Shown: piece after piece, positions 27,184 through 60,159 of the stretch
How the letters are laid out: each line of letters starts with the position of its first letter
Numbering within the stretch: position 1 is the first letter of the stretch
NCBI RefSeq assembly: GCF_002327105.1
Contig: NZ_CP023406.1
Span: 868,001-932,000 of the forward strand
Length of the DNA stretch: 64,000 nucleotides
Direction: 5' to 3'
Source of the DNA: Luteimonas chenhongjianii
GTDB taxonomy: Bacteria > Pseudomonadota > Gammaproteobacteria > Xanthomonadales > Xanthomonadaceae
The notes under the pieces: model-generated
What the model was told of the DNA's origin: nothing
Databases searched by the model: none
The model's input: only the letters and a program-made list of their open reading frames with translations
Position numbers and translations under genes: made by a program

Positions 27184-28565
27184 GGGTTGCCCTCGTGCAG
27201 AGTCTCGCCGCGGAAGCCGGCCAGCCCCTGGCGGCGGCGGATCAGCCAGCCGTGCAGCGCCCGGGGGGCGATCGCGATGGCGTTCATGGCGTAGATCATG
27301 CGGAACAGGTAAAGGCGCCAGCGGACCGCGTCATTGTCGAAGACATCGCCCGCCAGCATCGAAATCACCGCCTGCTCCACCTGCAGGGCGTTGCGCGGCG
27401 CCGCGAACAGGCGTTGCATGACCGGCGTGTTGAAGCGGTGGATGAACCAGGTGAAATGGCGCAGGCCGCGCCGCAGCTGCGCCTGCATCGCGCGCTGCAG
27501 CGAGGCCTCGCGCTCGGGCGCGTGCAGCGCCGCATCGACCAGCGCGGCGCCGCGGCGCGCGCTGTCCATCGCCAGGAATACGCCCGACGAGAAGATCGGA
27601 TCGATGAAGGTGTAGGCATCGCCGACCAGCAGCCAGCCCGGGCCGCACATGCGGGTCGCGCCGTACGAATAGTTGCCGGTGGCGTGCACGGGCGCGATGC
27701 GCTCGGCCGCCTGCATGCGCGCCCGGACCGCGGGGATGCCCTGCAGCGTGCGCATCAGCAGCGCTTCGTTGTCGAGACGCTCCGGGCCTGCGCCACGCTG
27801 TTTGAGGTAGTCGGGAAAACACACCGCGCCGACGCTCATCACGTCGTCGGGCAGCGGAATCATCCACATCCAGCCGGACGCGAAACGGGCGATGGTGATG
27901 TTGCCGGCGTCCGCGCCGGGCTGCCGGCGCACGCCGCGGAAATGGCTGAAGAGCGCCGCCGACTGGTGGGTGCGGCTGCGGCGCTTGGTGCCGAGCTTCG
28001 AGGCCAGGAAGGTGTCGCGGCCGCTCGCGTCGATCACGTAGCGCGGGGCAAAGCGCAGGCGCGTGCCGTCGTGCGTCGCCGCCTCGACCCGCGCGGGGCG
28101 ACCGTCGTCGCCGAAGACGACGTCGGTGACCCGGGTCCGCTGGTGCGCCTCCACGCCGTTTCGCTGCGCATGCGCAAACAGCAACTGGTCGAACTGGTCG
28201 CGGCGCACGTGCACGGCGAAGTCCGATTTCGGATCGAGCGCGCGGGTGAAGTGGAACACATGGCTGCGGCCCGTCTCGCCCGGCATCGGGAAGTCGGCGC
28301 CGGCCTTGAGCACGCCGATCGCGCGGACCTCGTCGAGCACGCCCAGCTCGTCGAGGATGGGCATGTTCATCGGCAGCAGCGATTCGCCGATGTGGAACCG
28401 CGGGTGGGCGTCCTTCTCGAGCATCACCACCGAATGCCCGGCGCGGGCGAGCAGGGTGGCCGCGGTGCTGCCGGCCGGACCGCCGCCGATGACCACCACG
28501 TCGATGTCGCGCAGATCGGCATCGGCAGTGGAAGCAGGGGCTGCAGCGTGCGGCGTCGGTGTCAT
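27180..28565 (-). CDS. Flavin-dependent halogenase-like oxidoreductase of the pigment cluster
   Basis: A 461-residue FAD enzyme. The dinucleotide-binding motif is VVIGGGPAGSTAATLL (near 25-40), followed by PRFHIGESLLPMN, typical of the tryptophan-halogenase-like superfamily. The halogenase signature WxWxIP is intact as GWMWMIPLPDD, and the flavin-binding GWLLVGDAYTFIDPIFSSGVFLA block is present. Xanthomonadins carry halogen on the aryl ring, so ring halogenation or another FAD oxidation of the aryl unit is the expected role. It is transcribed divergently from the acyl carrier protein gene (123 bases apart) and coupled to xanB2. Start taken at the ATG at 28565; the preceding open codons look non-coding. 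Confidence 0.85.
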   Translation of the reverse strand: MTPTPHAAAPASTADADLRDIDVVVIGGGPAGSTAATLLARAGHSVVMLEKDAHPRFHIGESLLPMNMPILDELGVLDEVRAIGVLKAGADFPMPGETGRSHVFHFTRALDPKSDFAVHVRRDQFDQLLFAHAQRNGVEAHQRTRVTDVVFGDDGRPARVEAATHDGTRLRFAPRYVIDASGRDTFLASKLGTKRRSRTHQSAALFSHFRGVRRQPGADAGNITIARFASGWMWMIPLPDDVMSVGAVCFPDYLKQRGAGPERLDNEALLMRTLQGIPAVRARMQAAERIAPVHATGNYSYGATRMCGPGWLLVGDAYTFIDPIFSSGVFLAMDSARRGAALVDAALHAPEREASLQRAMQAQLRRGLRHFTWFIHRFNTPVMQRLFAAPRNALQVEQAVISMLAGDVFDNDAVRWRLYLFRMIYAMNAIAIAPRALHGWLIRRRQGLAGFRGETLHEGNP

Positions 28566-36860: not shown

Positions 36861-38501
36861 TCAGGCCGCGTCGGCGTACCAGCTGGCGTCGAGCGACACG
36901 GGAAGCTGGGACGTGTCGCCGAGCAGGGCGTCGAGACCGTGGTCGCCGATCGCCGGGTGCTCGCTGCGCGCGCGTTGCAGCAGTTCCGCGGCCAGCCAGC
37001 GCATGCGCTCGACGTTCGCGCCAATGCGCGCCACGAAGGCAGCCGTGTCGAGCGTATCCGACAGCGCGCCGTTCATCTCCCGGAACCAGTCGATACGGAA
37101 CTGGTCGAGCAGGCGCGCACCGGGCACCGGACGCCCCGCGTTCCGCTGGCCCCATTCGCGCAGCAGTGGCTGGATCGCCAGATTGAGCGCGCCGGCCTGC
37201 TGGAACGCCGGACGCAGCCGGCCGAGCGTGGCCAGGTCGGTCATCCGGTCGGCGAAGAACAGCGGCGCCAGCAGCGCCCAGTAATAGGTGTAGTCCCAGA
37301 TCACCTTGAGCGGCATCACCTGCGTATCGCCGAACAGCGGGTACTGGTCCTGATAGAGGGTCAGGGTGTTCTCGTAGAACGAGACGTACAGCTGCTGGTA
37401 GAGATCGGCATAGGGCGTGAGGTCGGCACCCGCGCGATCCTTGTCGATCAGATCGCAGATGTAGGTATTGCTGATCGCGATGAAGTCGCTGCCCGGTGAA
37501 TAGAACGGATCCAGGAACAGGCCGGCATCGCCGGTCAGCGCCCAGCGCCGGCTGGAGAACACCTGTTTGGCGCCGTGGGAAAAATGCCGCAGGAACATGA
37601 AGTCCTGCAGGGCATGCTGACCACCGTCGAGAGTCGCTGCGACCTGTGGCTGGTGGCGGCGCAGCCAGGCCATCGCCTTGGCGTGGGTGTTCATGGTCTC
37701 GAGCGGATGCATCTGCCCGTCGCAGACGATGCCTACCGAATGCGCGCCCGACGACAGCGGGATCAGCCAGAACCAGTAGCCTGGCCCGCACATGTGGTTG
37801 GTCGAACGCCAACGATCCGGTGGATCGCAGCGCTGCAGCCACTGCGGGTCCTGGGACCAGCTGTTGGGATCGATGAACCCGTCGACGCGCCACCACACCG
37901 CATTGGCGTCGTGGCCGTTGGCCATGGCCAGGCCGAGCTTGCGCTTGAGCAGTCCGGCGCGCCCGCCGGCATCGACCAGCCAGCGACAGGTCACCCTGTG
38001 CCTGGAGTCGCCCTGTTCGACCTGGACCGCATGGTCGCCATCGTCTTCGGCCAGATCGATCTCGCGCACCGTCGCGCCGTCATCGAAACGCACCCCCAGT
38101 TCGCGCGCGCGCACGCCCAGATGGTTCTCGAAGCGGCCGCGGTCGATCTGCCACGACGGGGTCGGCATCAGTTCGCTGACCCCGAGCTCGGTGCACTGGT
38201 CGACGCGATCGCTGCCGTCGGAGAAGAAGAACCGGAAGCCGAACTTGCGGATGTGTTGCTGGTCGAGATGCTCGCGCAGGCCGAGCACGCTGGCGAAGTA
38301 ATGCGCGCCGATCTCGACGCTGGATTCGCCGACCTTGTGCGCGGCTTCGCGAACGGGATGTTGGCGCCGTTCGATCACGGTCACCGCGAGGTCGGGATGG
38401 CGCTGGCGCAGCTGGATCGCCAGCGTCAGGCCGGACAGGCCGCCACCCAGGATCGCGACATCGGTCCGATGGTCACGGGCCACCGCAGGTTCGGCGCGCA
38501 T
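36861..38501 (-). CDS. Second flavin-dependent halogenase-like oxidoreductase of the pigment cluster
   Basis: A 546-residue FAD enzyme. The dinucleotide motif is VAILGGGLSGLTLAIQL, with VGESSVEIGAHYF as in tryptophan-halogenase-like proteins. The halogenase signature WxWxIP is present as GPGYWFWLIPLSSG, and the FAD domain motif RWALTGDAGLFLDPFYSPGSDFIAI follows. A long C-terminal helical domain (about 400-546) is larger than in simple halogenases. With the first flavin enzyme it gives this cluster two candidates for aryl-ring halogenation or another flavin reaction. It is the last gene of the four-gene minus operon; its ATG overlaps the glycosyltransferase stop as TGATG. Confidence 0.82.
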   Translation of the reverse strand: MRAEPAVARDHRTDVAILGGGLSGLTLAIQLRQRHPDLAVTVIERRQHPVREAAHKVGESSVEIGAHYFASVLGLREHLDQQHIRKFGFRFFFSDGSDRVDQCTELGVSELMPTPSWQIDRGRFENHLGVRARELGVRFDDGATVREIDLAEDDGDHAVQVEQGDSRHRVTCRWLVDAGGRAGLLKRKLGLAMANGHDANAVWWRVDGFIDPNSWSQDPQWLQRCDPPDRWRSTNHMCGPGYWFWLIPLSSGAHSVGIVCDGQMHPLETMNTHAKAMAWLRRHQPQVAATLDGGQHALQDFMFLRHFSHGAKQVFSSRRWALTGDAGLFLDPFYSPGSDFIAISNTYICDLIDKDRAGADLTPYADLYQQLYVSFYENTLTLYQDQYPLFGDTQVMPLKVIWDYTYYWALLAPLFFADRMTDLATLGRLRPAFQQAGALNLAIQPLLREWGQRNAGRPVPGARLLDQFRIDWFREMNGALSDTLDTAAFVARIGANVERMRWLAAELLQRARSEHPAIGDHGLDALLGDTSQLPVSLDASWYADAA

Positions 38502-48189: not shown

Positions 48190-50790
48190 TTACTGCGCGG
48201 CGCAGTCGAGCCGGTGCGTGGCATCGGTGCCGATGCGCACCTCTGCCAGACCCAGGGTCAGACCTGCCGGAGCGCGCAGCGCGAACGGCGTGCTGACACG
48301 CGTGGTGTCGAGGCCCGCGCCCGCCAGGCACTTGAGCGGAATGCCCGCGGTCACCCACTCGTTGCGCGGCAACGTGGCCAGCCATTCGCGCACCGGCAGC
48401 TCGCCCTTGCAGGCTTCGCCGCAACCGGCGGACAGGACGATGTCGCCACTGGCCGGCAGTGCATCGACACGCAGCGTCACCAGCAGCAGCGAATCGCCAT
48501 TGGTCTCGCGGCTCAGATCGACCGGCGAATGCGACAGCAGTTCGGCGGTGGCATTGCCGGTCCAGGTGAGCAGTCGAGCGCCTTCCTGGGTCTGGTGATC
48601 GACCGCGGCGAGGGTCAACGTGCCGTCGGGCGTGGCGACGCGCGGGTGCAGCACGTCGGCGCCGCGGCCATCCGCGCCGGTGACCACCAGGCGGATGCCG
48701 GGTCCCGGCACGCCACGGGCGAAGAAACCGGCGCTCTTGCCGTCCTCGGCGCTGACCCCGGCGTCTTCCGGCAACGCGGCGAGATTGCCGTCATCGGCGT
48801 AGGTCAGGCCATGGCCGAACGCGAACAGTGGGTCGTAGCCTTCCATGCCCACGTTGTTGACGTACTGGTCGGCGCGGCGCGGCCAGGAGAAGCTGAGCTT
48901 GCCCTTGAAGTCGTGCTGCGGCTGACCGTCTGCGCCGCGCAGGAGCACGTCGGCGATGCCGGCACCCTCCGAGCCCGGCAGCCAGGCTGCGACGAAGGCA
49001 TTGGACGCGTTGATCTCGCGGTTCATCCACAACGGACGGCCGCTGAGGAACACCGAGACCACCGGAATGCCGTCGGCGCGCAGGCGCTTGACCAGCTCGA
49101 GGTCGGCGTCGTCGCCGGGCTTGTACAACAGGTTCGGCAGGTCGCCGAGGAACTCGGCATAGGGCTCCTCGCCGAACACCACGATCGCGACGTCCGGCTT
49201 CTGCCGGTAGCTGCCGTCGATCGCGAGTTCCGCGGTGCCGCCGGCGGCGCCGACCTGCTTGCTGATGCCGTCCCAGATGGTGTCGCCGTTGGGGTAGTCG
49301 GCGCGCTTGGTGCCCGTGCCCTGCCAGTTCAACGTCCAGCCGCCGGACTGCTTGCCCATGTCGTCGGCGCCGTCGCCGGCCACCAGTACGCGCTGGTTCG
49401 CGGCGATCGGCAGGATGCCGTCCTGGTTCTTCAGCAGCACCAGCGATTCGCGCACCGCGCGACGCGCGACCTCGCGATGTTCGGGTGCGCCGAGCAGTTC
49501 GAACTTGCCGCCGAGCGCGCGCTCCGAGGGCTTGGGCGCATCGAACAGGCCCATGCGGAACTTCACCCGCAGGATGCGGCGCACCGCGTCGTCGAGGCGC
49601 TCCATCGGAATCTCACCCGACTGCACGTGCTTGACCGTGCTATCAAAGAGGCCGCGCCAGCTGTCGGGCGCCATCGCCATGTCGAGCCCGGCGTTGAACG
49701 TCGCTGCGCAATCGGTCGTGGTGCAGCCCGGCAGCTGGCCGTGGCCGTTCCAGTCACCCACGACAAAGCCGCCGAAGTTCATGCGGTCCTTCAGCACGTC
49801 GGTCAGCAGTGCCTTGTGTCCGTGCATGCGCTGGCCGTGGACGCTGTTGAAGGAGGCCATGACCGCTTGCGCGCCCGCGGCGATCGCCGGCGGATAGCCG
49901 GCGCCGTGGATGTCGCGCAGTTGCGCTTCGCTCACGGCGGTCTCGCCCTGGTCCTTGCCGCCGGCGGTGCCGCCGTCGCCCAGGTAGTGCTTCACCGAGA
50001 CCATCACATGCTGGTCGTTGAGGAACTCCGGCGAGCCCGCCTTGCCCTGCATGCCTTCGACCACGGCCGGCGCGAACGCAGCGACGATGTCGGGCGATTC
50101 GGAATAGCCCTCGTAGGTACGACCCCAGCGGTCGTCCTGCGGCACGGCGACGGTCGGCGCGAACGCCCATTCCATGCCGGTGGTCCGCGTCTCGATTGCG
50201 GTGACGCGTCCGATCTCGCGCATCAGCTCGGCATTGCGGGTCGCGCCAAGGCCGATGTTGTGCGGGAACAGCGTCGCGCCGACGATGTTGCTCTGGCCGT
50301 GTACGGCGTCGATGCCGAAGATCACCGGGATCGCCTTGCCGCCGCCCGACGTGTCCATCGACGCTTCCCAGAAGGCATCCGACAGCGCCAGCCATGCCGC
50401 CGGCGAGGCGTCATAGCGGCCGCCCGGATCGGAGTTGCCGCCGGCGAGGATCGACCCCAGGCGGTACTTGCGCACGTCCTCGGGCGTGACGTCGGCGATG
50501 TCGCCCTGCACGATCTGGCCGACCTTTTCCTCGACGCTCATCGTCGCCAGCAGGTCGTCGATCTTCTTCTCCAGCTCGGCGTCGTGCGGCAGGGGCCATG
50601 CGGTATCGGGCCAGTTCGCTGCATCGATGGCGCCCGGGTCGGCATCGGCTGCACCGGCCTGTGCGGTTGCCTGGGCGGCGGGGGTCTCGTCGCGCGCACA
50701 TCCGGCGACGCCAACGACAAGCGCGGCGAGCATGGCCGGCAACAGTGCGCGGCGAAGGACATGGCGGACGGGGCGACGCGATTCGATCAT
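48190..50790 (-). CDS. Exported GH3 beta-glucosidase / exo-beta-glucan glucohydrolase
   Basis: An 866-residue glycoside hydrolase. A lipoprotein-type signal (AMLAALVVGVAGCARD) places lipidated Cys near 31. The GH3 TIM-barrel domain has the start-region KIDDLLATMSVEEKVGQIVQ, KHYLGDGG and the nucleophile Asp in GGFVVGDWNGHGQLPG. The alpha/beta domain carries the likely acid/base Glu in VVFGEEPYAEFLGDLPN, the pattern of ExoP/ExoI-type glucohydrolases. A C-terminal beta domain (about 670-866) has disulphide-type cysteines. A cell-envelope enzyme releasing glucose from beta-glucan oligosaccharides is likely. An operator palindrome lies 60 bases upstream of its ATG, shared with the divergent LacI gene. 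GGAGC ribosome binding site. Confidence 0.94.
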   Translation of the reverse strand: MIESRRPVRHVLRRALLPAMLAALVVGVAGCARDETPAAQATAQAGAADADPGAIDAANWPDTAWPLPHDAELEKKIDDLLATMSVEEKVGQIVQGDIADVTPEDVRKYRLGSILAGGNSDPGGRYDASPAAWLALSDAFWEASMDTSGGGKAIPVIFGIDAVHGQSNIVGATLFPHNIGLGATRNAELMREIGRVTAIETRTTGMEWAFAPTVAVPQDDRWGRTYEGYSESPDIVAAFAPAVVEGMQGKAGSPEFLNDQHVMVSVKHYLGDGGTAGGKDQGETAVSEAQLRDIHGAGYPPAIAAGAQAVMASFNSVHGQRMHGHKALLTDVLKDRMNFGGFVVGDWNGHGQLPGCTTTDCAATFNAGLDMAMAPDSWRGLFDSTVKHVQSGEIPMERLDDAVRRILRVKFRMGLFDAPKPSERALGGKFELLGAPEHREVARRAVRESLVLLKNQDGILPIAANQRVLVAGDGADDMGKQSGGWTLNWQGTGTKRADYPNGDTIWDGISKQVGAAGGTAELAIDGSYRQKPDVAIVVFGEEPYAEFLGDLPNLLYKPGDDADLELVKRLRADGIPVVSVFLSGRPLWMNREINASNAFVAAWLPGSEGAGIADVLLRGADGQPQHDFKGKLSFSWPRRADQYVNNVGMEGYDPLFAFGHGLTYADDGNLAALPEDAGVSAEDGKSAGFFARGVPGPGIRLVVTGADGRGADVLHPRVATPDGTLTLAAVDHQTQEGARLLTWTGNATAELLSHSPVDLSRETNGDSLLLVTLRVDALPASGDIVLSAGCGEACKGELPVREWLATLPRNEWVTAGIPLKCLAGAGLDTTRVSTPFALRAPAGLTLGLAEVRIGTDATHRLDCAAQ

Positions 50791-50863: not shown

Positions 50864-50972
50864 CGCGGCGGCTAGCATACCGGCGCAAGCCCGCGGGCGC
50901 TTGCTGCACGGCGACATGCACGCCGGCGCGGGATCCTGCGGCGACTCTGGCAGAATCGGGACCGAAACGAGG

Positions 50973-51998
50973 ATGGCCGGATTGAACAGCATGCGGGTGC
51001 GGATCGAGGATGTCGCGGAAGCGGCGGGCGTGTCGATGAAGACGGTCTCGCGCGTGCTCAACCATGAGCCGAATGTCTCGGAGCGCACGCGCGTCGCCGT
51101 CGAGACGGCAGTGGAAAAGCTGCAGTACCGCCCGCTGGCATCGGCCCGGCTGCTGGCCGGCCGCCGCTCCTATCTGGTCGCGATGCTCTACGACAATCCA
51201 TCGAGCAACTATCTGATGGAGGTCGAACTCGGCGTGCTCGATGCCTGCCAGTCGCAGCACTACAACCTGATGCTGGCGCCGGTCGACTACACCGCGCGCG
51301 ACATCGTGGCCAAGGTCGAGGCGATGATCGCGCAGTCCCAGCTCGATGGCGTGGTGCTCACGCCACCGATCACCGACGATGCCTCGCTACTGGCGCGGCT
51401 GGATGAACTGGGCGTCCCGTACGCGAGCATTTCGGCGCAGGAGCAGAACCGCCGCATCGGCACGGTGGTCGACGAGCGCAGCGCCGCCCGCGACGTCGTG
51501 CTGCATCTCGCATCGCTCGGCCACCGGCGCATCGCCCACATCAAGGGCCACGCCGCGCACGGCGCCAGCCGCTGGCGCCTGGCGGGCTACCGCGATGGAC
51601 TCAAGGAGGCGGGTCTGGAGTACGACGCCTCGCTGGTGGTTGCCGGCAAGTTCTTCTACGAATCCGGCTTCGATGCGACCAACAGGCTGCTCGACCTGCC
51701 GCAGCCGCCGACCGCCGTCTTCGCTGCCAACGACGACATGGCCGCCGGCGCGATCTGCGCCATCTGCGAGCGCGGTCTCTCGGTCCCCAGGGACGTTTCG
51801 GTCTGCGGCTTCGACGACATGCCGATCGCACGGCACATCTATCCGTCACTGACCACGGTGCGCCAGCCCAGCCGCGAGATGGGGCGCCTGGCTGGCCTGG
51901 AACTGCTCAAGGCGATCCGCGACAGCAGCGCCGGCGAAACCCTGGAGCTGCCCTACGCGCTGCAGGTGCGCAAATCGACGGGACCGGTGCGCGCCTGA
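50973..51998 (+). CDS. LacI-family transcriptional regulator of the glucan locus
   Basis: A 341-residue repressor. The HTH and hinge are [31 protein letters not shown] and [14 protein letters not shown]. The periplasmic-binding-protein-like ligand domain follows ([50 protein letters not shown] and [26 protein letters not shown]). The effector is probably a glucose-type sugar or cello-/laminari-oligosaccharide, judged from the GH3 and the transporter. Start at the ATG at 50973; another ATG at 50991 would remove six residues. Its proposed targets are the three palindromes in the locus. Confidence 0.93.
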
Positions 51999-52020: not shown

Positions 52021-53523
52021 TCAGACCGGAGCGGCAGGGCAGTAGCCGCGTACGTAGGTCTCGTGCGCGGGCAGCTGGGCGAGCGTGCGCGCCACGCGTT
52101 CGCGGATCTGGCCCAGGAAGCGTGAGAGTTCCGCATCGTCCATCAGGTCGGCCGTCGGGTGGTGGCTGCGCGGCACGAGCCCCTGGCCGAGCATGACCTG
52201 GACCCACGAATTCTCGGCGAACAGCTCGAAGCCCTCGCGGAACACCCGGCCGCTGTCGGCGAACAGGGCGATGCGATGCGCCAGCGAGTCGGGCACCTGC
52301 ATCTCCCGGCAGGCGCGCCAGAACGGGGTGTCGTCGCGGTCGGTCACCTTGTAGTGCAGGATCACGAAATCGCGGATGCTCTCGATCTCCTCGCGCGACT
52401 GCCGGTTGTACTCGTCGACATCGGTCTGCCTGATGCCGGCGGCGGGGAACAGCTGGAGCAGGCGGATGATGCCGCGCTGGATCAGATGGATGCTGGTCGA
52501 TTCCAGCGGTTCGAGAAAGCCGCTCGCAAGCCCGAGCGCGACGCAGTTGCCGTGCCAGGTACGCTCGCGCTGACCCGGGCGGAAGCGGATGGTGCGCGGC
52601 TCCACCAGTCGCTCGCCCTGGAGGTTGGCCAGCAGCGTCTCGCGCGCCTGCGCATCGTCGATGTAGCGGCTGGCGTAGACGATGCCGTTGCCGACGCGGT
52701 GCTGCAGCGGAATCCGCCATTGCCAGCCCGCCTCGCGCGCGGTCGAGCGCGTGTACGGCACCGCGGGCCCGACCGACGCGGTCTGGACCGCGATCGCGCT
52801 GTCGCACAGCAGCCAGTGCGACCAGTCCTCGTAGCCCACACCGAGCGCCTGCTCGATCAGCAGGCCGCGAAAACCCGTGCAATCGATGAAGAGATCGCCT
52901 TCGATGCGCTCGCCCGAAGCGAGCACCAGGGCCTCGATATTCCCCGAGGCACGGTCGGCCTGCACCTCGGCGATGCGTCCCTCGATGCGGCGCACGCCAT
53001 GCGATTCGCTAAACCTGCGCAGGTAGCGCGCGTACAGGCCGGCGTCCATGTGGAAGGCATAGTTGAGACCGTTCTCGGGCAGATGCGCGAAGCGGTCCTC
53101 GAGCGCGGCGCGCAGTTCCAGGCAGTAGTCGCCGTAATCGCCGGCGAGGCCGCGCGAGCGGCCGCGATGCCAGAAGTGCTGGAAGCCCGCGCTCCAATGG
53201 TCCTTGCCGGTGGTGCCGAACGAATGGACGTACTCCTCGCCGCGCGCCTTCCAGTCGGCGAAGCGGATGCCGAGCTTGAAGGTGGCCTGGGTCGCGGCCA
53301 TGAACTCGCGCTCGTCGAGCCCGAGCGCGCGGTGGAACGTCACCAGTGTCGGGATCGTCGCCTCGCCGACGCCGACGGTCGGAATCTCGTCCGACTCGAC
53401 GAGCACGATGTCGAGCATCGGACCCAGCGTGCGGGAAATGCCGGCGGCCGCCATCCAGCCCGCGGTGCCGCCGCCGGCAATCACGACGCGGCGTACCGCC
53501 GTGTTGGGAGGGGTCTCTTGCAT
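52021..53523 (-). CDS. Tryptophan-7-halogenase-like flavoprotein of the glucan locus
   Basis: A 500-residue flavoprotein with the full halogenase signature set: GGGTAGW at 18-23, the catalytic-type Lys83 in QATFKLGIRF, WxWxIP as GWQWRIPLQ, and Glu in SGFLEPLESTSIHL, the position of the second catalytic residue of PrnA. No biosynthetic genes are near; instead it is the last gene of a receptor-SapC-cupin-halogenase series that recurs in glycan-utilisation loci of xanthomonads and caulobacters. The natural substrate is unknown; modification of a protein, peptide or sugar is possible. Start is 11 bases after the cupin gene stop. Confidence 0.9.
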   Translation of the reverse strand: MQETPPNTAVRRVVIAGGGTAGWMAAAGISRTLGPMLDIVLVESDEIPTVGVGEATIPTLVTFHRALGLDEREFMAATQATFKLGIRFADWKARGEEYVHSFGTTGKDHWSAGFQHFWHRGRSRGLAGDYGDYCLELRAALEDRFAHLPENGLNYAFHMDAGLYARYLRRFSESHGVRRIEGRIAEVQADRASGNIEALVLASGERIEGDLFIDCTGFRGLLIEQALGVGYEDWSHWLLCDSAIAVQTASVGPAVPYTRSTAREAGWQWRIPLQHRVGNGIVYASRYIDDAQARETLLANLQGERLVEPRTIRFRPGQRERTWHGNCVALGLASGFLEPLESTSIHLIQRGIIRLLQLFPAAGIRQTDVDEYNRQSREEIESIRDFVILHYKVTDRDDTPFWRACREMQVPDSLAHRIALFADSGRVFREGFELFAENSWVQVMLGQGLVPRSHHPTADLMDDAELSRFLGQIRERVARTLAQLPAHETYVRGYCPAAPV

Positions 53524-53534
53524 CGTGTGCTCCG

Positions 53535-54551
53535 TCAGCGGTTGAGTCGTTGCAGCAGGCGGGTGCGCAGCCTGCGCGCGAGCTCGTCATCGAGCGGTGC
53601 CAGCAGGCCGCGCGCCGCCTCGGGAATATGGCCGGCGGTGTCGGCATCGGCGCCGAAGACGTAGTGGTCGAACACGTCGCGCCAGATCTCGCGCTGCGCC
53701 GGCGGCAGGTCGCGCACCGTCATCAACGCCAGCATCAGGGCGTTCATCGGCGTGTCCATCCGGGCCGGCGACTGGCGCCACCAGTAGTTCACCAGCACGT
53801 TGAAATCCGCGAGGCCTTCCATGTGGTGCCACCACATCGAGGGGATGAGGATCGCATCGCCCGGGTCGAGCTCGGCGACCATCGCATGGCGCATCGCTTC
53901 GGCAAAGCGCGGGAAACGCTGCAGGTCGGGCGCTGCGAAATCGACCAGGCTGATCGGCTGGCCGGCCGGGGTGAGGTCCAGCGGACCGATGTAGAGATTG
54001 CGCAGCTGCCCGGGTGGAAACAGCGTCACGCGGCGCCGTCCGGCGACGACGCAGGCCAGATTGTCCGGTACGTCCTGGTGCGCGGCGATGCGGCTGCGGT
54101 TGCCGATCCAGATGCTCGCCAGCGGATCGCGCGGGCCGAAACCGATGGGGTTGTCGGAGCGGAAGCCCGGCAGCCAGGTATCGACCGTCGTCGAGGCGAC
54201 ATAGATCGACGGCGGCGCCGCGGATGCGGCCTCGCGCAGCAGCGTGCGCAGGACCACGTCGAGCGGCACGTGCTCGCGGCGGAAGTTGAAGCCGCGCAGG
54301 TCGTCGTTGTAGAAGAAGCGCCCCCGGATTTCCGGCGGCCCGACCGTAGCCACGACCGGTGCAGCGTCGGGACGCAGGAAGCCGCGCAGATACTCCGCTG
54401 CCGACGCCGCGCCTGCGCGGGCGGCCTGCACCATCGGCCAATGGCCGACCACGCCGCGCAGCACCACGGGGCGATCGCCGTCGAGGAGTGCGTCGGGCAG
54501 CGCCTCCGCACGCACGTCGTGACGCTCGGGGATCGCCTCAGGCCCGGACAT
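53535..54551 (-). CDS. Cupin-like (JmjC-type) domain protein
   Basis: A 338-residue cupin_8-type 2-oxoglutarate-oxygenase-like protein. The iron facial triad is His158 and Asp160 in RIAAHQDVPDNLACVV and a distal His in MWWHHMEGL (242/243). The common neighbours RRRVTLFPPGQLRNLYIGPLD and GDAILIPSMWWHHM are diagnostic. Such enzymes hydroxylate proteins or small molecules. It is located between SapC and the halogenase-like gene, with a 14-base overlap with SapC, so the three are co-translated. The substrate is unknown; proteins of the outer membrane or the receptor are candidates. Confidence 0.9.
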   Translation of the reverse strand: MSGPEAIPERHDVRAEALPDALLDGDRPVVLRGVVGHWPMVQAARAGAASAAEYLRGFLRPDAAPVVATVGPPEIRGRFFYNDDLRGFNFRREHVPLDVVLRTLLREAASAAPPSIYVASTTVDTWLPGFRSDNPIGFGPRDPLASIWIGNRSRIAAHQDVPDNLACVVAGRRRVTLFPPGQLRNLYIGPLDLTPAGQPISLVDFAAPDLQRFPRFAEAMRHAMVAELDPGDAILIPSMWWHHMEGLADFNVLVNYWWRQSPARMDTPMNALMLALMTVRDLPPAQREIWRDVFDHYVFGADADTAGHIPEAARGLLAPLDDELARRLRTRLLQRLNR

Positions 54552-55239
54552 GGCGCCGGTTCATGCGGTCGATGAGGTCGCGGAAACGCGACATGGAGGC
54601 GATCGCCATGTAGATCGGCTCGAGATGGCCGCCAGTGTGCAATGCCGCGATCGCAGCGCCGTCGAGTGCGCGCAGCCGAGCCTCGTCGATGATGTGGAAG
54701 CCGCTCAGCCGGTGCGGCTGGCCATCGTCGAGCCGGATGTCGAGCGTGAATGGTTCGAGCAGTGCATGGCTCTGCAACGCGGCCACGAAGTCCGGCAGGG
54801 CGGCGATGCCGGCCTGCAGACGCAGCAGGATCTCCTGGATGCGCTGCAGATGCGGCGCGATGCCGCCGTGCGCCAGGAACAGCGGTTCGCCCTCGCCACT
54901 GCGGGCGCGTGGATGATCCAGGTCGATGTGGATCGTGGACGAGCCGCCGCTCATGCCGATCAGGAAAGGTTGCCGCGCGATCGCAAGCGGCACGTGGTGG
55001 GCGCCCCATCCGGACGCGTCGAGAAAAAGGTTGCTGCCTTGCTGCAGGCCGAGCAGCGCCAGTGGTTGCACGCGGTCGCCGTCGACGCGGAAGACGACGG
55101 GGTAATGCGGCTGCAGGTCGCGGAACTCTTCGGGGAAGGTCGGGGCGACCATGACATCGTCGCCGAGCGAGGGCGCATGGCGGATATCGATACGCAGGTC
55201 GCGATGCGCGACCGGATCGAGCTGTACGTGATTGGTCAT
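54538..55239 (-). CDS. SapC family protein
   Basis: A 233-residue SapC-like protein; the name comes from a surface-layer/toxin-associated protein of Campylobacter, but the role is unknown. Seen blocks: APTFPEEFRDLQPHYPVVF, LLGLQQGSNLFLDASGWGAHHVPLAIARQPFLIG, and the C-terminal LSGFHIIDEARLRALDGAAIAALHTGGHLEPIYMAIASM, highly conserved in this family. No signal peptide, so cytoplasmic. It is placed directly downstream of the TonB-dependent receptor (105 bases). ATG at 55239. Confidence 0.9.
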   Translation of the reverse strand: MTNHVQLDPVAHRDLRIDIRHAPSLGDDVMVAPTFPEEFRDLQPHYPVVFRVDGDRVQPLALLGLQQGSNLFLDASGWGAHHVPLAIARQPFLIGMSGGSSTIHIDLDHPRARSGEGEPLFLAHGGIAPHLQRIQEILLRLQAGIAALPDFVAALQSHALLEPFTLDIRLDDGQPHRLSGFHIIDEARLRALDGAAIAALHTGGHLEPIYMAIASMSRFRDLIDRMNRRHVRA

Positions 55240-55343
55240 CGGGTGCCGACGGTTCCTGGCGCGGGAAGCGCGTGCGCAGCATAACGCTGCGTGGACCACG
55301 GGACCGCCGCGCACCCCTTGCAGGTGCGCGGCGGCATGACGCG

Positions 55344-58300
55344 TCAGAAGCTGTAGCGCGCGCCGAACATGTAACGCGGACCGGTCTGGGTGGCGAACCG
55401 CAGCTGGTTGGTGTGCCGCGCGTGCGTGCGGTACGTCTCGTCGGTCAGGTTGATCGCCTCGGCATGCAGCGAGAACTGCGGCGTGACCTGGTAGCTGATG
55501 TTGAGGTCGAGCTGGCCATAGGCTTCGGTGTAGTTCGGGTTCGGACCCTGGCCACCGATGCCCGACAGGAACTCGTCGCGCCAGTTGTAGGCCGCACGCA
55601 CCTGCCACTTGTTCTTGTCGTAGAACGCGACAACGTTGGCCGAATCGCTCAGCCCGATCATCGGGTACTGGTCGCCGAGGCTGAGGTTGTCGAAGGTCAG
55701 ACCCGAATCGACGATGGTGTAGTTTGCCGCTACGCCGAAACCGCTCTCTCCGAACATGTGCTGGACGTTGAACTCCCAGCCGTCAAGCGAATCGGAGCGC
55801 TGGTTGGCCGGCGTGTTGATGTCGAAACCGGCGATCGGATCGGTCGGCAGACCGACGATGCTGCCGGTGCGCTCGCCGTTGGCGTTGATGCCGGTATAGG
55901 TGACGCCCGGATCGCCGGCGTGGTTGATGAAGATGTAGTTGCGGATGCAGACCAGATCGGACGTTCCGCAGCCATTGGCGACGGCGTCGTTCCAGTACGC
56001 CCCGCCCACCGGCGTGTGGAGGTTGAACGGCGTGTCGCGGACGATGGTGTTGCTGATGAAGTTCGAGATGTTCTTGCGGAACCAGCCGACCGACACGTAG
56101 CTGGCCTCGCCGTAGTACCACTCGAACGACAGGTCGAAGTTGCTGGACTTGAGCGGCTCGAGCGCCGGATTGCCCTGCGAGCCGTCACCGCCGTCCACGC
56201 GCACGATGTTGGCCAGGCTCAGGCCGCCCTGGATCTGCTGCCAGCCGGGGCGTCCGATGGTCTGGCTGTAGCTGCCGCGCAGGACCATGTTCTCGGCCAC
56301 TTCCAGGCTCAGGTCGAGGCTCGGCAGGAAGTGGTCGTACTTGCCGGTCTGGGAAATGAAGTCGCGCTCACCGTCGTAGACCACGTAGAGCTCGTTCGCC
56401 GAGTCCCAGCTGATGCCGTTGGCGACGCGGGCCAGCGCCTCGGACGTGACGTCGGTTTCCTCGTAGCGCACGCCGGCGGCGACGCGCAGCGGCATCGACC
56501 AGTCGAATACGGTGTTCCACTGCACGTACGCGGCCTTCGACTTCTCTTCGGTGCGCAGGTCTTCGGTGAACTCGGTCGGGGCGCGATAGAGCGCGTCATC
56601 CCCGGCGATTTCGGCCGCACGGGTACGCAGGCGGTCGAAGTCGAACATCATGAAGCGGCCGGTGAAGCGCGGATCGTCATGGCCGCGGAAGGCGTCGAAG
56701 TAACGGCCCATGTCGTCGGCGTAGAAGATGCTGTCGTCGTAGTCCGACGGATTGCCCACGCCGCCCCAGGTGTCGCGCTGCATGACGGCCGATGCGGTGC
56801 GGTTGTTGACCTCGGTCATCGACACGCCGAAATCGAGGTTGGAGTAGTTCTCGAACGTGAAGCGGCCACCAGCCTGGATCTGCTCCACTTCGGATTTGTT
56901 GTAGCTGTTCTGGAAGACCGAGCCGGTCACCACGACATCCGACGGGGAGATCTGGTCCACGCCCGGCGGCAGGCCGATCGTGAGGATCGGGAAGTCGCCG
57001 CTGTAGTCCACCGACGTGGACGCACGACGGAACGCCGCCGTGCCGAGCACGCCGGCCGAGCCGAACGGGCTGTCGGGGCGCGATTCGGCCGTGGAGTTGT
57101 GGTAGTCGAGGTACAGCTTCAGCGAATCGCTCGCATCCCACTCGACATTGAAGCCCGTGGATTCCAGCGTATTGCGGGTCGCCAGCTCCATGCCGCCCAT
57201 CGCGATGTCGGCGTAGACCGGGTTGCCGTTCTCGTCGAACGACACGTTGTCCTCGCCGTAGACGATCGGCGCGGCGATCGGGCCGTCGGCCCAGCTGCTG
57301 TCGCCGGGGCCGTAGTTGAACCACACAGACAGTTCGTTACGCTGCTGCTGCACCTTGTTCTCGGCGTAGGTGTAGTCGAGCGTGGTGCGCACGTTGTCGG
57401 TGGGCTGCCACTGGAAGGTGGCCTGGCCGTTGGTGCGCTGGCGCTGCACGCCGTTGACGCTGTAGCCGGTGTTCTGCGGACGGCCGTAGATGGTGTCCGG
57501 GCCCGGGCGATTGGTGATGCGGTCGAAGCCGGGCTCGCCGGCGACCGGCAGGCGGTTCCACGAGTCGGTGTCGTCGCCGCGGAACATCGCCCAGCCATCG
57601 GCCACCGAAGCCTGGCTGAAGCCGGAGTCACGCTCCTGGTAGCTGCCGCTCAGGGCGATGCCGAAACGGTCGTCGCCGAAGGTGTGGCTGAAGATGCCGG
57701 ACAGTTCACCGGTGATCGACTGGCCCGGATACGTGTCGGGCAGGTTGTCGACGGACGTGTCGTGCACGCCCTTGATGCCCACGTTGGCGACGGAACCGGG
57801 GTTGTCGAGCGGGCGCGCAGTCTTGACGTTGATCGTCGCGCCGATGCCACCCGTTGGAGCCGATGCGCGGCTGGTCTTGAAGACTTCGATCTCCGACACC
57901 GATTCCGATGCCAGGTTGGCGAAGTCGAAGGCGCGCGAGTTCGACGTGCCGCCGCCGCCCGGGCCGAGGTTCGAGGCCGGCATCTGGCGGCCGTTGAGCA
58001 GGACGAGGTTGAAATCCGGGCCGACGCCACGGACCGTGACCTTCGAGCCTTCGCCGCTGGAGGTGCGGTCGATCGACACGCCCGAGATGCGCTGCAGCGA
58101 TTCGGCCAGGTTGGTATCGGGGAACTTGCCGATGTCTTCGGCGACGATGCCGTCGACGATGCCCTGCGAATCGCGCTTGAGGTTCATCGAGGACGTCAGG
58201 CTGCCGCGGATACCGGTGACGGTGATCGCGTCGAGCTCGGTCGGGTCATCGGAGCTGGCGGTGGTGTAGGGCGTCGCGGTCTGGTTCTCGTCGGCGACCT

Positions 58301-58382
58301 GTGCGGCCAGCGGCGGCGCGAGGGCCAGCAGCAGGGCGGAGGTCAGAAGCCGTTTTCTGGGCGCAGTGTTGATGGTTTTCAT
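55344..58382 (-). CDS. TonB-dependent receptor (Xanthomonas/Caulobacter carbohydrate type)
   Basis: A 1012-residue outer-membrane receptor. Signal MKTINTAPRKRLLTSALLLALAPP. A TonB-box-like stretch with LDAITVTGIRGSLTSSM is followed by the plug domain (DIGKFPDTNLAESLQRISGVSIDR, VRGVGPDFNLVLLNGRQMP) and a 22-strand barrel ending TGPRYMFGARYSF. The plug wording FPDTNLAESLQRI is characteristic of the TonB-dependent receptor subfamily of xanthomonads and caulobacters that imports plant or marine glycans. It is expected to take up beta-glucan oligosaccharides. A GGAGGGG ribosome binding site is seven bases before the ATG at 58382. Operator palindrome about 100 bases upstream. Confidence 0.95.
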   Translation of the reverse strand: MKTINTAPRKRLLTSALLLALAPPLAAQVADENQTATPYTTASSDDPTELDAITVTGIRGSLTSSMNLKRDSQGIVDGIVAEDIGKFPDTNLAESLQRISGVSIDRTSSGEGSKVTVRGVGPDFNLVLLNGRQMPASNLGPGGGGTSNSRAFDFANLASESVSEIEVFKTSRASAPTGGIGATINVKTARPLDNPGSVANVGIKGVHDTSVDNLPDTYPGQSITGELSGIFSHTFGDDRFGIALSGSYQERDSGFSQASVADGWAMFRGDDTDSWNRLPVAGEPGFDRITNRPGPDTIYGRPQNTGYSVNGVQRQRTNGQATFQWQPTDNVRTTLDYTYAENKVQQQRNELSVWFNYGPGDSSWADGPIAAPIVYGEDNVSFDENGNPVYADIAMGGMELATRNTLESTGFNVEWDASDSLKLYLDYHNSTAESRPDSPFGSAGVLGTAAFRRASTSVDYSGDFPILTIGLPPGVDQISPSDVVVTGSVFQNSYNKSEVEQIQAGGRFTFENYSNLDFGVSMTEVNNRTASAVMQRDTWGGVGNPSDYDDSIFYADDMGRYFDAFRGHDDPRFTGRFMMFDFDRLRTRAAEIAGDDALYRAPTEFTEDLRTEEKSKAAYVQWNTVFDWSMPLRVAAGVRYEETDVTSEALARVANGISWDSANELYVVYDGERDFISQTGKYDHFLPSLDLSLEVAENMVLRGSYSQTIGRPGWQQIQGGLSLANIVRVDGGDGSQGNPALEPLKSSNFDLSFEWYYGEASYVSVGWFRKNISNFISNTIVRDTPFNLHTPVGGAYWNDAVANGCGTSDLVCIRNYIFINHAGDPGVTYTGINANGERTGSIVGLPTDPIAGFDINTPANQRSDSLDGWEFNVQHMFGESGFGVAANYTIVDSGLTFDNLSLGDQYPMIGLSDSANVVAFYDKNKWQVRAAYNWRDEFLSGIGGQGPNPNYTEAYGQLDLNISYQVTPQFSLHAEAINLTDETYRTHARHTNQLRFATQTGPRYMFGARYSF

Positions 58383-58751
58383 GGATTTCCCCTCCCAAGG
58401 AATTCTCATGTGGTTTTAAAGATGGACCCGTCGTCCACAGTGCGGACGCGCCGAGGCAGCGGAATTGGAAGTCAGGTTGACAGCGTTGTCAATGAAACGG
58501 CGACTCGCCATTGCAAGTGCGCGGAACCTTGAGGAAATACGCTTGCGCTTGTTGCGCTGCAGCAGATATTGGCGAGTGCGATGCGCGGTTGCGCACTGCA
58601 TCTCGCCGTCGAAACACGACGTCCTGGAGGCGGGACCCCGCTTTTTTGCGGGGTTCGAGAGCCCGCGAGCCCGGATGCGGTCCGGCGGATGCGGGCCAAC
58701 GACTGCGTCCACGCTCCCGCGCTGGGGCATCACCGGGACCGCAGGGCTGCG
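58383..58751. other. Intergenic region upstream of the TonB-dependent receptor
   Basis: A 369-base gene-free region between two same-strand genes. It holds the receptor's operator at 58477-58492 and a 7-bp hairpin ACCCCGC / GCGGGGT with a six-T loop at 58635-58654. Beyond the operator and hairpin no other structure is evident. Confidence 0.5.
58477..58492. promoter_or_regulatory. LacI-type operator upstream of the TonB-dependent receptor
   Basis: TTGACAGCGTTGTCAA, six-base half-sites TTGACA and TGTCAA with core GCGT. It lies about 95 bases upstream of the receptor start, the likely promoter region. The 14-base core is identical to the site at 50850-50863. Confidence 0.8.
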
Positions 58752-60062
58752 TCAGTGCATCGCCCCGGAGCGCGACACGACTGCGCTGCCGCCGACCGGC
58801 GTCGAACCGTGCAGGCGCGAACCGCGCAGGCCGTACCAGATGATGTAGACGTAGCAGACCAGCGGCACGACGAACGCCAGCTGGATGCCGATGCGATCGG
58901 CCAGTGCACCCTGGGCCAGCGGGATCACCGCGCCGCCGACGATCGCCATCACCAGCAGGCTGGAGGCCTTGCTGGTCAGCGTGCCGAGGCGTTCGATCGC
59001 GGTGGTGAAGATGGTCGGGAACATGATCGAGTTGAACAGGCCGATCGCCAGTGCGCTCCACATCGCGACGCTGCCCGTGGTGGTCATCGTCGTCACCAGC
59101 AGCACGCAGACCATCGCGCCGGCGAAGCCGAGCAGGCGACGCGCGTCGATGCGGGTCATCAATGCTGCGCCGATGAAGCGGCCGACCATCGCGCCGCCCC
59201 AGTAGAAGGCCAGGAACCGCGACGCCTCCGCTTCGCTCAGGCCGCCGATCGAAGGCTCGGCCATGTAGTTGATCAGGAAGCTGCCGATCGCGACCTCGGC
59301 GCCGACATAGCAGAAGATGCCGAGCACGCCCCAGCGCAGGTGCGGCTGGCGCAGTGCTTCGAGATAGGTGTGGTAGACGGCGGGGCCGGCCTCCGTGGCG
59401 TCGCGCAGGCTGGGGATGCGCATCAGCAGCACGAAAACCGCGAGCAGCAGCAGGGCGCCCGACAGCATCAGATAGGGCATCTCGACCGAGCGCGCCTCGG
59501 CGGCGCGGTAGGCCATCTGCTCGGCGGCGCCCATCGCCGCGATCTCGTCGGCGCCCAGCACCGCGCCGACCAGGATCAGCGGGCCGATCAGCAGCGGGAA
59601 TACCGTGGTGCCGAGCGAGTTCAGCGCCTGCGCGAGATTCAGCCGGCTGTGCGAGGTTTCCGGTCGGCCCAGCAGGCTGATGTAGGGATTGGCGGCGACC
59701 TGCAGCAGCGTGATGCCGCTGGCGAGCACGAACAGCGCGGTCAGGAACACCGGATAGGACGGCATGCGCGCGGCCGGATAGAACAGCGCCGCGCCGACCG
59801 CGGCGACCACGAGCCCCATGACGATGCCCGCCTTGTATCCCACGCGCGCGACCAGCGCGCCCGCCGGCATCGACATCAGGAAGTACGCGCCGAAGAACGT
59901 GAACTGGATCAGCATCGTCTGCGTGTAGTTCATCGAGAACACGGCTTTGAGATGCGGGATCAGCACGTCGTTGAGGCTGGTCAGGCCGCCCCAGGTGAAG
60001 AAGATGAGGCTGACGACCGCGATCGCGGCCGGCTTCGAAAGCGTCGAGGACTGTGCGTTCAT
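58752..60062 (-). CDS. Glucose/galactose-type MFS transporter (FucP/GluP family)
   Basis: A 436-residue 12-helix sugar:H+ symporter. The first helix carries IFFTWGGLTSLNDVLIPHLK, characteristic of the glucose/galactose and fucose transporter group; ANPYISLLGRPETSHSRLNLAQALNSLG and the second-half FLAFYWGGAMVGRFIGAAL are also conserved. It moves monosaccharide, probably the glucose released by GH3, across the inner membrane. Start at MNAQSSTLSKPAA (60062) preferred; an ATG at 60113 would add 17 residues. The operator is about 98 bases upstream. Confidence 0.92.
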   Translation of the reverse strand: MNAQSSTLSKPAAIAVVSLIFFTWGGLTSLNDVLIPHLKAVFSMNYTQTMLIQFTFFGAYFLMSMPAGALVARVGYKAGIVMGLVVAAVGAALFYPAARMPSYPVFLTALFVLASGITLLQVAANPYISLLGRPETSHSRLNLAQALNSLGTTVFPLLIGPLILVGAVLGADEIAAMGAAEQMAYRAAEARSVEMPYLMLSGALLLLAVFVLLMRIPSLRDATEAGPAVYHTYLEALRQPHLRWGVLGIFCYVGAEVAIGSFLINYMAEPSIGGLSEAEASRFLAFYWGGAMVGRFIGAALMTRIDARRLLGFAGAMVCVLLVTTMTTTGSVAMWSALAIGLFNSIMFPTIFTTAIERLGTLTSKASSLLVMAIVGGAVIPLAQGALADRIGIQLAFVVPLVCYVYIIWYGLRGSRLHGSTPVGGSAVVSRSGAMH

Positions 60063-60159
60063 GCGTAGCGACCGGCTTGGGCGGAGATCTGTCGATGCAT
60101 CTTGTGTCCTCAAGGACGGCAGACCCGAGCGGTCCAGGGGCGGACTTGTAAGCGACGCA

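Follow-up and report, generated by a model that had tools for sequence, protein, structure and literature searches.

A recurrent gene cassette joins TonB-dependent receptors to SapC, a JmjC-like oxygenase and flavin-dependent halogenases and makes the receptor a candidate substrate

The flavin-dependent halogenases Xcc4156 (PDB 6y1w) and BrvH (6frl) are the best described relatives of the enzyme with which this study is concerned. Xcc4156 has an open substrate site and brominates indoles, not free tryptophan; its authors suggest larger substrates, possibly peptides, and describe the native substrate of either enzyme as unknown (PMC7336383). BrvH also has an open site, spares free tryptophan, prefers bromide and is slow on indole, and here, too, larger and possibly peptide substrates were proposed (PMC5945002). 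Both papers treat the enzymes alone, and a term search of their main text finds neither TonB nor SapC. The nearest precedents for the chemistry discussed below are MibH and SrpI, which halogenate tryptophan in a ribosomal peptide, and MppI, which brominates a lanthipeptide (PMC12615548); MibH and Xcc4156 share 26% identity (PMC7336383). These three enzymes belong to natural-product pathways and act on small precursor peptides, whereas the enzymes described here are partnered with an outer membrane receptor. The locus in question lies in a stretch of 64,000 nucleotides from Luteimonas chenhongjianii (NZ_CP023406.1, positions 868,001 to 932,000; hereafter the window), where genes for SapC, a Cupin_8 oxygenase and a halogenase follow a TonB-dependent receptor gene.

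All four genes lie on the minus strand and are transcribed in the order receptor, SapC, Cupin_8, halogenase:

55344..58409, minus strand: TonB-dependent receptor of the TonB-Xanth-Caul type, 1021 amino acids, N-terminal signal sequence visible by eye (TIGR01782, E 2.2e-204)
55289..55342, minus strand: stem-loop that directly follows the receptor stop codon, lacks a T-tract and has a folding energy of -36.3 kcal/mol; a possible attenuator or RNA-stability hairpin
54538..55239 (ATG at 55239), minus strand: SapC, 233 amino acids, no signal sequence by eye (PF07277, 4.1e-63)
53535..54551, minus strand: Cupin_8/JmjC-like 2-oxoglutarate oxygenase, 338 amino acids, iron ligands H158, D160 and H242 (PF13621, 3.1e-68)
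52021..53523, minus strand: flavin-dependent halogenase in position A, Xcc4156-like, 500 amino acids, with K83, E341-S342 and WxWxIP at 267-272 (PF04820, 9.4e-198)

A first-pass annotation had described the three genes as a row behind the receptor, and its coordinates, including the 14-base overlap of SapC and Cupin_8 (54538-54551) and the 11-base gap between Cupin_8 and halogenase (53524-53534), were confirmed. It had also called the genes co-translated, which holds for the trio. Co-translation of the receptor with the trio was rejected, since 104 bases separate receptor and SapC, about half of them taken up by the stem-loop.

That this arrangement is far beyond chance is evident from two observations. 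The L. chenhongjianii genome (3.35 Mb, one contig) encodes three SapC proteins and two full-length halogenases, and five of its receptors exceed the TIGR01782 cut-off; both halogenases sit in receptor-SapC-Cupin_8-halogenase sets, the second of which has the identical order (G000:C1:1961131-1967755; locus L028, 6131-12755). Between the two copies, the halogenases are 53%, the SapC proteins 41% and the receptors 38% identical, and the remaining three receptors are without such an enzyme set. Furthermore, we scanned a collection of one genome per species (84,980 species) for relatives of the window halogenase; the best 80 of the 517 obtained, those closest to the query (at least 58% identity), were kept as loci. 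A receptor adjoins the halogenase in 73 of the 80 loci, in a scan that was anchored on the halogenase only and thus did not select for neighbouring genes. The loci come from 46 Gamma-, 19 Beta- and 12 Alphaproteobacteria, with three unplaced. The set therefore recurs with its receptor in three classes of Proteobacteria, the first-pass annotation having spoken of xanthomonads and caulobacters, and the independence from receptors that it had named as a possible refutation is not what the genomes display.

The same scan corrects the picture of a three-gene set, which is real in the window but overlooks a second halogenase that is part of the usual unit. In 56 of the 80 loci (one with an extra cupin), the order is receptor, halogenase B, SapC, Cupin_8, halogenase A, whereas receptor-SapC-cupin-halogenase is found in 12 and receptor-cupin-halogenase in three; receptor-halogenase-SapC-halogenase and receptor-halogenase occur once each. 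Five of the seven loci that lack a receptor end with their contig, and the other two are lone halogenases. A second halogenase gene is likewise reported upstream of brvH (PMC5945002), as in the usual cassette. Halogenase B is absent from the window locus, where it was either lost or never present. In the sampled loci, we are thus dealing with a widespread, receptor-dedicated cassette that usually has five genes.

The association of halogenases with receptors is wider than the cassette. Among 150 genomes of the phylum, 15 contain a total of 51 PF04820 halogenase matches (E at most 1e-70, up to ten candidates scored per genome, each tandem copy counted separately). Of these, 38 have a TIGR01782-type receptor within 2.5 kb, and the number rises to 43 for distances of up to 7 kb, with five receptor candidates scored per genome; one further halogenase stands about 95 bases from a receptor found in another search. 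The layouts vary, with the halogenase downstream of, divergent from or upstream of the receptor. Caulobacter vibrioides, too, encodes SapC, a halogenase of this family and TIGR01782 receptors. The 147 receptors that we gathered, with duplicate sequences removed here as in the other counts, comprise 79 with a cassette, 25 with a halogenase and no adjacent SapC, 40 with nothing beside them, one with a cupin only and two that are undecidable, and halogenase linkage requires eight changes on the receptor tree. In two loci from another class of the phylum (L270 and L272), the receptor is divergent from two tandem halogenases, which are followed by Cupin_8, and no SapC is seen; this is a different arrangement of the cassette idea. 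Judged by coordinates, G125:C1:56500-67143 and G087:C1:702391-713023 also have a receptor divergent from two tandem halogenases and no SapC, and a third halogenase is close by in L272, G125 and G087. In one Xanthomonas genome (L153:9009-9963), the cassette's Cupin_8 frame is broken into two pieces, while its other genes are not split.

Cassette members also diverge together. Over 73 complete cassettes, the pairwise distances of the receptor correlate with those of halogenase A (r 0.86), SapC (0.82) and the cupin (0.72), with species history not removed, and none of these values was equalled in 300 permutations. As to expression, the window stem-loop has a z-score of -2.3 against mononucleotide shuffles, and no T-tract terminator was found at it. 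In 44 of 84 cassettes, the 60-base segment that follows the receptor stop has a folding z-score below -2 against simple shuffles; in 19 of the 84, four or more of the eight bases behind the last paired one are T, so that some hairpins may be true terminators. A hairpin between receptor and enzymes would fit a high output of receptor and a low output of enzymes.

SapC takes its family name from a Campylobacter surface-array locus, and we take the PF07277 family to be unrelated to the peptide-transport permease that is also named SapC. The window protein matches PF07277 over positions 1-220 of 220. SapC is found in 54 of the 150 genomes, with 100 matches in total, and we inspected the neighbourhoods of 99 genes: 96 from other genomes (of 97, one 32-residue fragment being left out) and the three of L. 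chenhongjianii itself. A halogenase is adjacent to 13 of the 99, 12 of which have a receptor, too. The idea that SapC is an obligatory halogenase partner across the whole family was rejected on this count, and the view of SapC as a receptor-linked component applies to the cassette, but not to the family, which is mostly unlinked. Nonetheless, in a tree of 167 SapC proteins, a single branch with a support of 98 divides the 85 halogenase-linked proteins from the 82 others, such that the linked proteins, the window SapC among them, form a dedicated subfamily, a separate clade within PF07277. Downstream of unlinked SapC genes (42 neighbours scanned from a longer list), we found outer membrane efflux proteins (five), trigger factor (three), epimerases (three) and mechanosensitive channels (three); upstream (38 scanned, likewise from a longer list), FAD-linked (flavin adenine dinucleotide-linked) oxidases (five), DUF3641 (three), peptidyl-prolyl isomerases (two) and TonB receptors (two), with single cases of SecA and RTX. 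These mixed neighbours point weakly, and only in part, to exported proteins.

An AlphaFold2 model of SapC has a predicted local distance difference test score (pLDDT) of 96.9, and a fold search with it against the PDB and the viral library BFVD returned no match. Seven SapC proteins with long extensions have no second Pfam domain, and hence no fusion to a halogenase or oxygenase is found among them. The neighbours of the window SapC are the TonB receptor and Cupin_8 rather than a surface-layer protein gene. Only the third SapC of the genome (L029:7122-7871), which stands alone, precedes a giant open frame: 2,702 codons that start no more than 70 bases past the SapC domain (L029:7895-16000), reach the end of the examined stretch and have no Pfam match. 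Frames that resemble a transposase by eye lie nearby. In another locus (L055:2-16072), SapC adjoins a giant open frame that exceeds 3,000 codons; a halogenase-like gene lies about 4.5 kb away on the same strand, and no receptor was found in that locus.

The catalytic residues of the cassette enzymes are conserved, in agreement with the complete motifs and iron ligands that had been noted for the window. Its halogenase aligns with PF04820 over positions 1-457 of 458 (658 bits) and carries the FAD motif, the catalytic Lys and Glu, and WxWxIP. In 91 position-A copies, the glycine residues, K83, E341, S342, W267, W269 and I271 are kept in at least 97%, with P272 below this value. The 62 copies of halogenase B keep the Lys and Glu, with Ala in place of the Ser that follows the catalytic Glu. 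For these counts and for the halogenase tree, A and B were assigned by position in the locus and not by sequence; the two separate on the tree, where label A (86 rows) changes four times and label B (63 rows) twice, against means of 62 and 53 after shuffling. The nearest PDB sequence of halogenase A is 6y1w (1.9e-230), followed by 9luq, which is named only tryptophan halogenase, and 6frl (1.5e-150), and that of halogenase B is 2pyx. With its sequence, catalytic Lys and Glu-Ser in common with Xcc4156 and BrvH, the window halogenase groups with them and is not an undescribed enzyme type. Two long open frames elsewhere in the window (27468-28502 and 37416-38462) give weak PF04820 matches, whose scores make them look like other FAD-dependent oxidoreductases, not halogenases.

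The Cupin_8 protein keeps H158, D160 and H242 in at least 97% of 84 copies, and N164 and R173 are kept as well. Its solved relatives in the PDB are FIH (1.9e-18), JMJD5 (1.9e-17), JMJD7 and C2orf60, of which FIH, JMJD5 and JMJD7 are protein hydroxylases. It has the HxD...H ligands in common with FIH, JMJD5 and JMJD7, but it is bacterial and carries an arginine, R173, as the putative counterpart of the 2-oxoglutarate-binding lysine of FIH.

How might these enzymes be connected to the receptor? No signal sequence is visible by eye in SapC, Cupin_8 or the halogenase, and we therefore take all three to be cytosolic. In our tentative reading, to which we give somewhat less than an even chance, the trio works in the cytosol, is dedicated to its receptor and, ahead of export, modifies either the receptor polypeptide or a peptide that the receptor has bound. 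A more specific version is more doubtful: tryptophans of the cell's own outer membrane sugar receptors would be halogenated (and hydroxylated) prior to export, and SapC would act as a chaperone or presenter specific to the receptor. In the course of events that we infer, the receptor would be synthesised and kept unfolded in the cytosol until Sec export, and SapC would bind the chain or offer part of it to the enzymes. A residue might then be hydroxylated by the Cupin_8 enzyme, and the halogenase might brominate or chlorinate aromatic side chains, most likely those of tryptophans whose final place in the barrel is close to its extracellular mouth. After export and assembly, the receptor so modified would differ in its ligand binding, its stability or its resistance to agents that target receptors. 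Receptor modification is the most economical mechanism, and it is suggested by the dedication of the cassette to the receptor together with a tryptophan-specific constraint in halogenase-linked receptor groups; the conserved catalytic residues, the co-divergence, the protein-hydroxylase relatives of Cupin_8 and the open sites of Xcc4156 and BrvH lend it further support.

The tryptophan constraint was assessed in seven groups from the receptor tree (C, 77 receptors; H1, 9; H2, 9; U1, 12; U2, 10; U3, 8; U4, 5), using samples of five sequences with a mean identity of 0.35-0.44 and leaving Phe and Tyr out of the other residues. The share of invariant tryptophans relative to that of other residues is 2.22, 1.62 and 1.40 in the linked groups and 1.04, 0.06, 1.04 and 0.00 in the unlinked ones, while the corresponding ratio for Phe and Tyr is 0.86-1.33 in all seven. 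As to group composition, H1 encloses two unlinked receptors (L239), neither H2 nor U4 is a strict clade, U3 includes one cupin-linked receptor (L243) and one that is undecidable (L228), and the H2 receptors L225 and L226 were set as linked by hand from coordinates. The window receptor is a TIGR01782 member (681.3 bits against a cut-off of 310) without a sequence relative in the PDB at E 0.001 (phmmer); its fold model (pLDDT 87.2) is best matched by PirA (5fr8, Foldseek 2.5e-30). Four of its tryptophans, W363, W548, W668 and W943, are predicted to lie near the outer mouth, at the outer ends of strands in a topology derived from strand alternation, which would also be in keeping with receptor modification.

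Several observations weigh against the receptor as target. The tryptophan constraint, with a chance of 1 in 35 that the three linked groups rank above the four unlinked ones, comes from groups that were picked by hand after the tree had been seen and are not all independent, and tryptophans that stack on sugars would explain it equally well. All 79 cassette receptors have W363, but all 79 also have N327, and 77 have R998, so that conservation specific to the clade is no proof of a target. No conserved tryptophan is lost along with halogenase B (56 five-gene versus 19 four-gene receptors), and no tryptophan column tracks linkage in a pairs test on the receptor tree, which has little power with its six independent pairs. 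One receptor of the cassette clade has the signature tryptophans and no cassette beside it (L252:6069-8912). The co-divergence of receptor and enzymes has no control for species, the cassette contains no flavin reductase, enzymes in the cytosol would need to reach the receptor before it is exported, and a halogenated or hydroxylated receptor peptide is so far only a prediction. The genome that contains L252 (G015) holds another receptor set with halogenase and SapC, L119. The receptors of L119 and of L123, which have one halogenase and SapC and no cupin beside them, are without tryptophan at 548, 668 and 943 and branch apart from the rest of the cassette clade.

The glycan setting of the window locus, which the first-pass annotation had pointed out, is borne out by three flanking genes:

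58752..60113, minus strand: sugar permease of the major facilitator superfamily, glucose/galactose type (TIGR01272, 4.8e-105, over the cut-off)
50901..51998, plus strand: LacI-family regulator, convergent with the trio (LacI 4.7e-18, Peripla_BP_3 1.9e-37)
48190..50790, minus strand: beta-glucosidase/exo-glucanase of glycoside hydrolase family 3 (GH3) with an Exop_C domain (GH3 4.4e-76, Exop_C 3.6e-31)

The GH3 enzyme, the regulator, which is likely the regulator of the locus, and the permease indicate use of beta-glucans or beta-glucosides. With receptor, glycosidase, sugar permease and regulator, the locus has the layout of the carbohydrate-utilisation (CUT) loci of Xanthomonas, which contain TonB receptors for plant carbohydrates; the terms halogen, tryptophan, SapC and Pass1 do not occur, by term search, in the main text of the CUT paper (PMC1790865). 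Among the matches listed in open-access literature searches, there was no paper on the SapC-oxygenase-halogenase-receptor set; closed-journal regulon papers may mention the genes. To our knowledge, there is no described system that joins a TonB receptor with halogenases, a JmjC-like oxygenase and SapC; the single enzymes are of known types. The suggestion of an undescribed system survives in that no function appeared among these matches, but it does not extend to the halogenase, a type known from 6y1w, 9luq and 6frl.

This setting gives rise to the strongest rival, in our view an unlikely one, according to which the receptor imports beta-glucosides with an aromatic aglycone, an indole or phenol that is freed by beta-glucosidases of the locus and is then converted, and so detoxified, by halogenase and oxygenase in the cytosol. 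GH3 genes do occur at 11 of 43 downstream and five of 47 upstream neighbours of halogenase-linked loci (scanned from longer lists), with GH1 and GH16 also present, and BrvH brominates free indole, but it does so slowly, and its authors doubt that indole is the natural substrate (PMC5945002). Moreover, the constant partner of the enzymes is the receptor and not a glucosidase, halogenases also stand beside receptors of other clades, and aglycone conversion would leave SapC and the two halogenases unexplained. Modification of the sugar itself is the least likely possibility, since these enzymes act on electron-rich aromatics, as is established for the family. It is quite unlikely that the enzymes serve another envelope protein and that linkage to the receptor only secures co-expression when glycan is present. 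Some unlinked SapC genes adjoin export-related genes, such that SapC may serve other exported proteins, but these neighbours are matched in frequency by unrelated genes (the FAD-linked oxidases at five of 38), and receptor and enzymes stay linked and diverge together across three classes.

Alternatively, the enzymes might make a small halogenated signal or ligand that is taken up or sensed via the receptor, as in a siderophore-receptor pair, which we hold to be very unlikely. Siderophore loci usually pair a receptor gene with biosynthetic genes, and the receptor model resembles the siderophore receptors PirA and PfeA, though this is the general fold of TonB receptors. However, among the families listed for the 90 neighbours of linked loci (43 downstream, 47 upstream; 25 of 57 and 25 of 73 families), there are no natural-product synthases, in line with the first-pass annotation, and neither a synthetase nor a carrier gene; in their place we find glycoside hydrolases and sugar permeases. 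Between the stop codon of the receptor and the next family domain, the median distance over 84 cassettes is 151.5 bases, which leaves little room for a precursor peptide gene; none was noticed at the cassette, where no systematic search for small open reading frames was made. Highly unlikely, finally, is a role in which the halogenases have ceased to halogenate in the cell and tune the locus or the receptor as flavin oxidases, redox sensors or sources of peroxide. The Ala of halogenase B in place of the Ser of halogenase A and the want of a flavin reductase would agree with such a role, but Lys and Glu are kept in both A and B, and Xcc4156 and BrvH, which are relatives of A, show halogenase activity in vitro (PMC7336383, PMC5945002).

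If modification of the receptor by its cassette holds true, this would constitute a post-translational modification system for TonB-dependent receptors and would supply the native substrate of the Xcc4156/BrvH halogenases. The cassette names the neighbouring receptor as a concrete candidate, with residues to inspect, such that the question of the native substrate becomes directly testable. Halogenation would then count among the regular modifications of bacterial envelope proteins, and the SapC family, whose model matched no solved fold, would gain a function. One may speculate that such a modification would tune sugar capture or shield the receptors from phages and bacteriocins.

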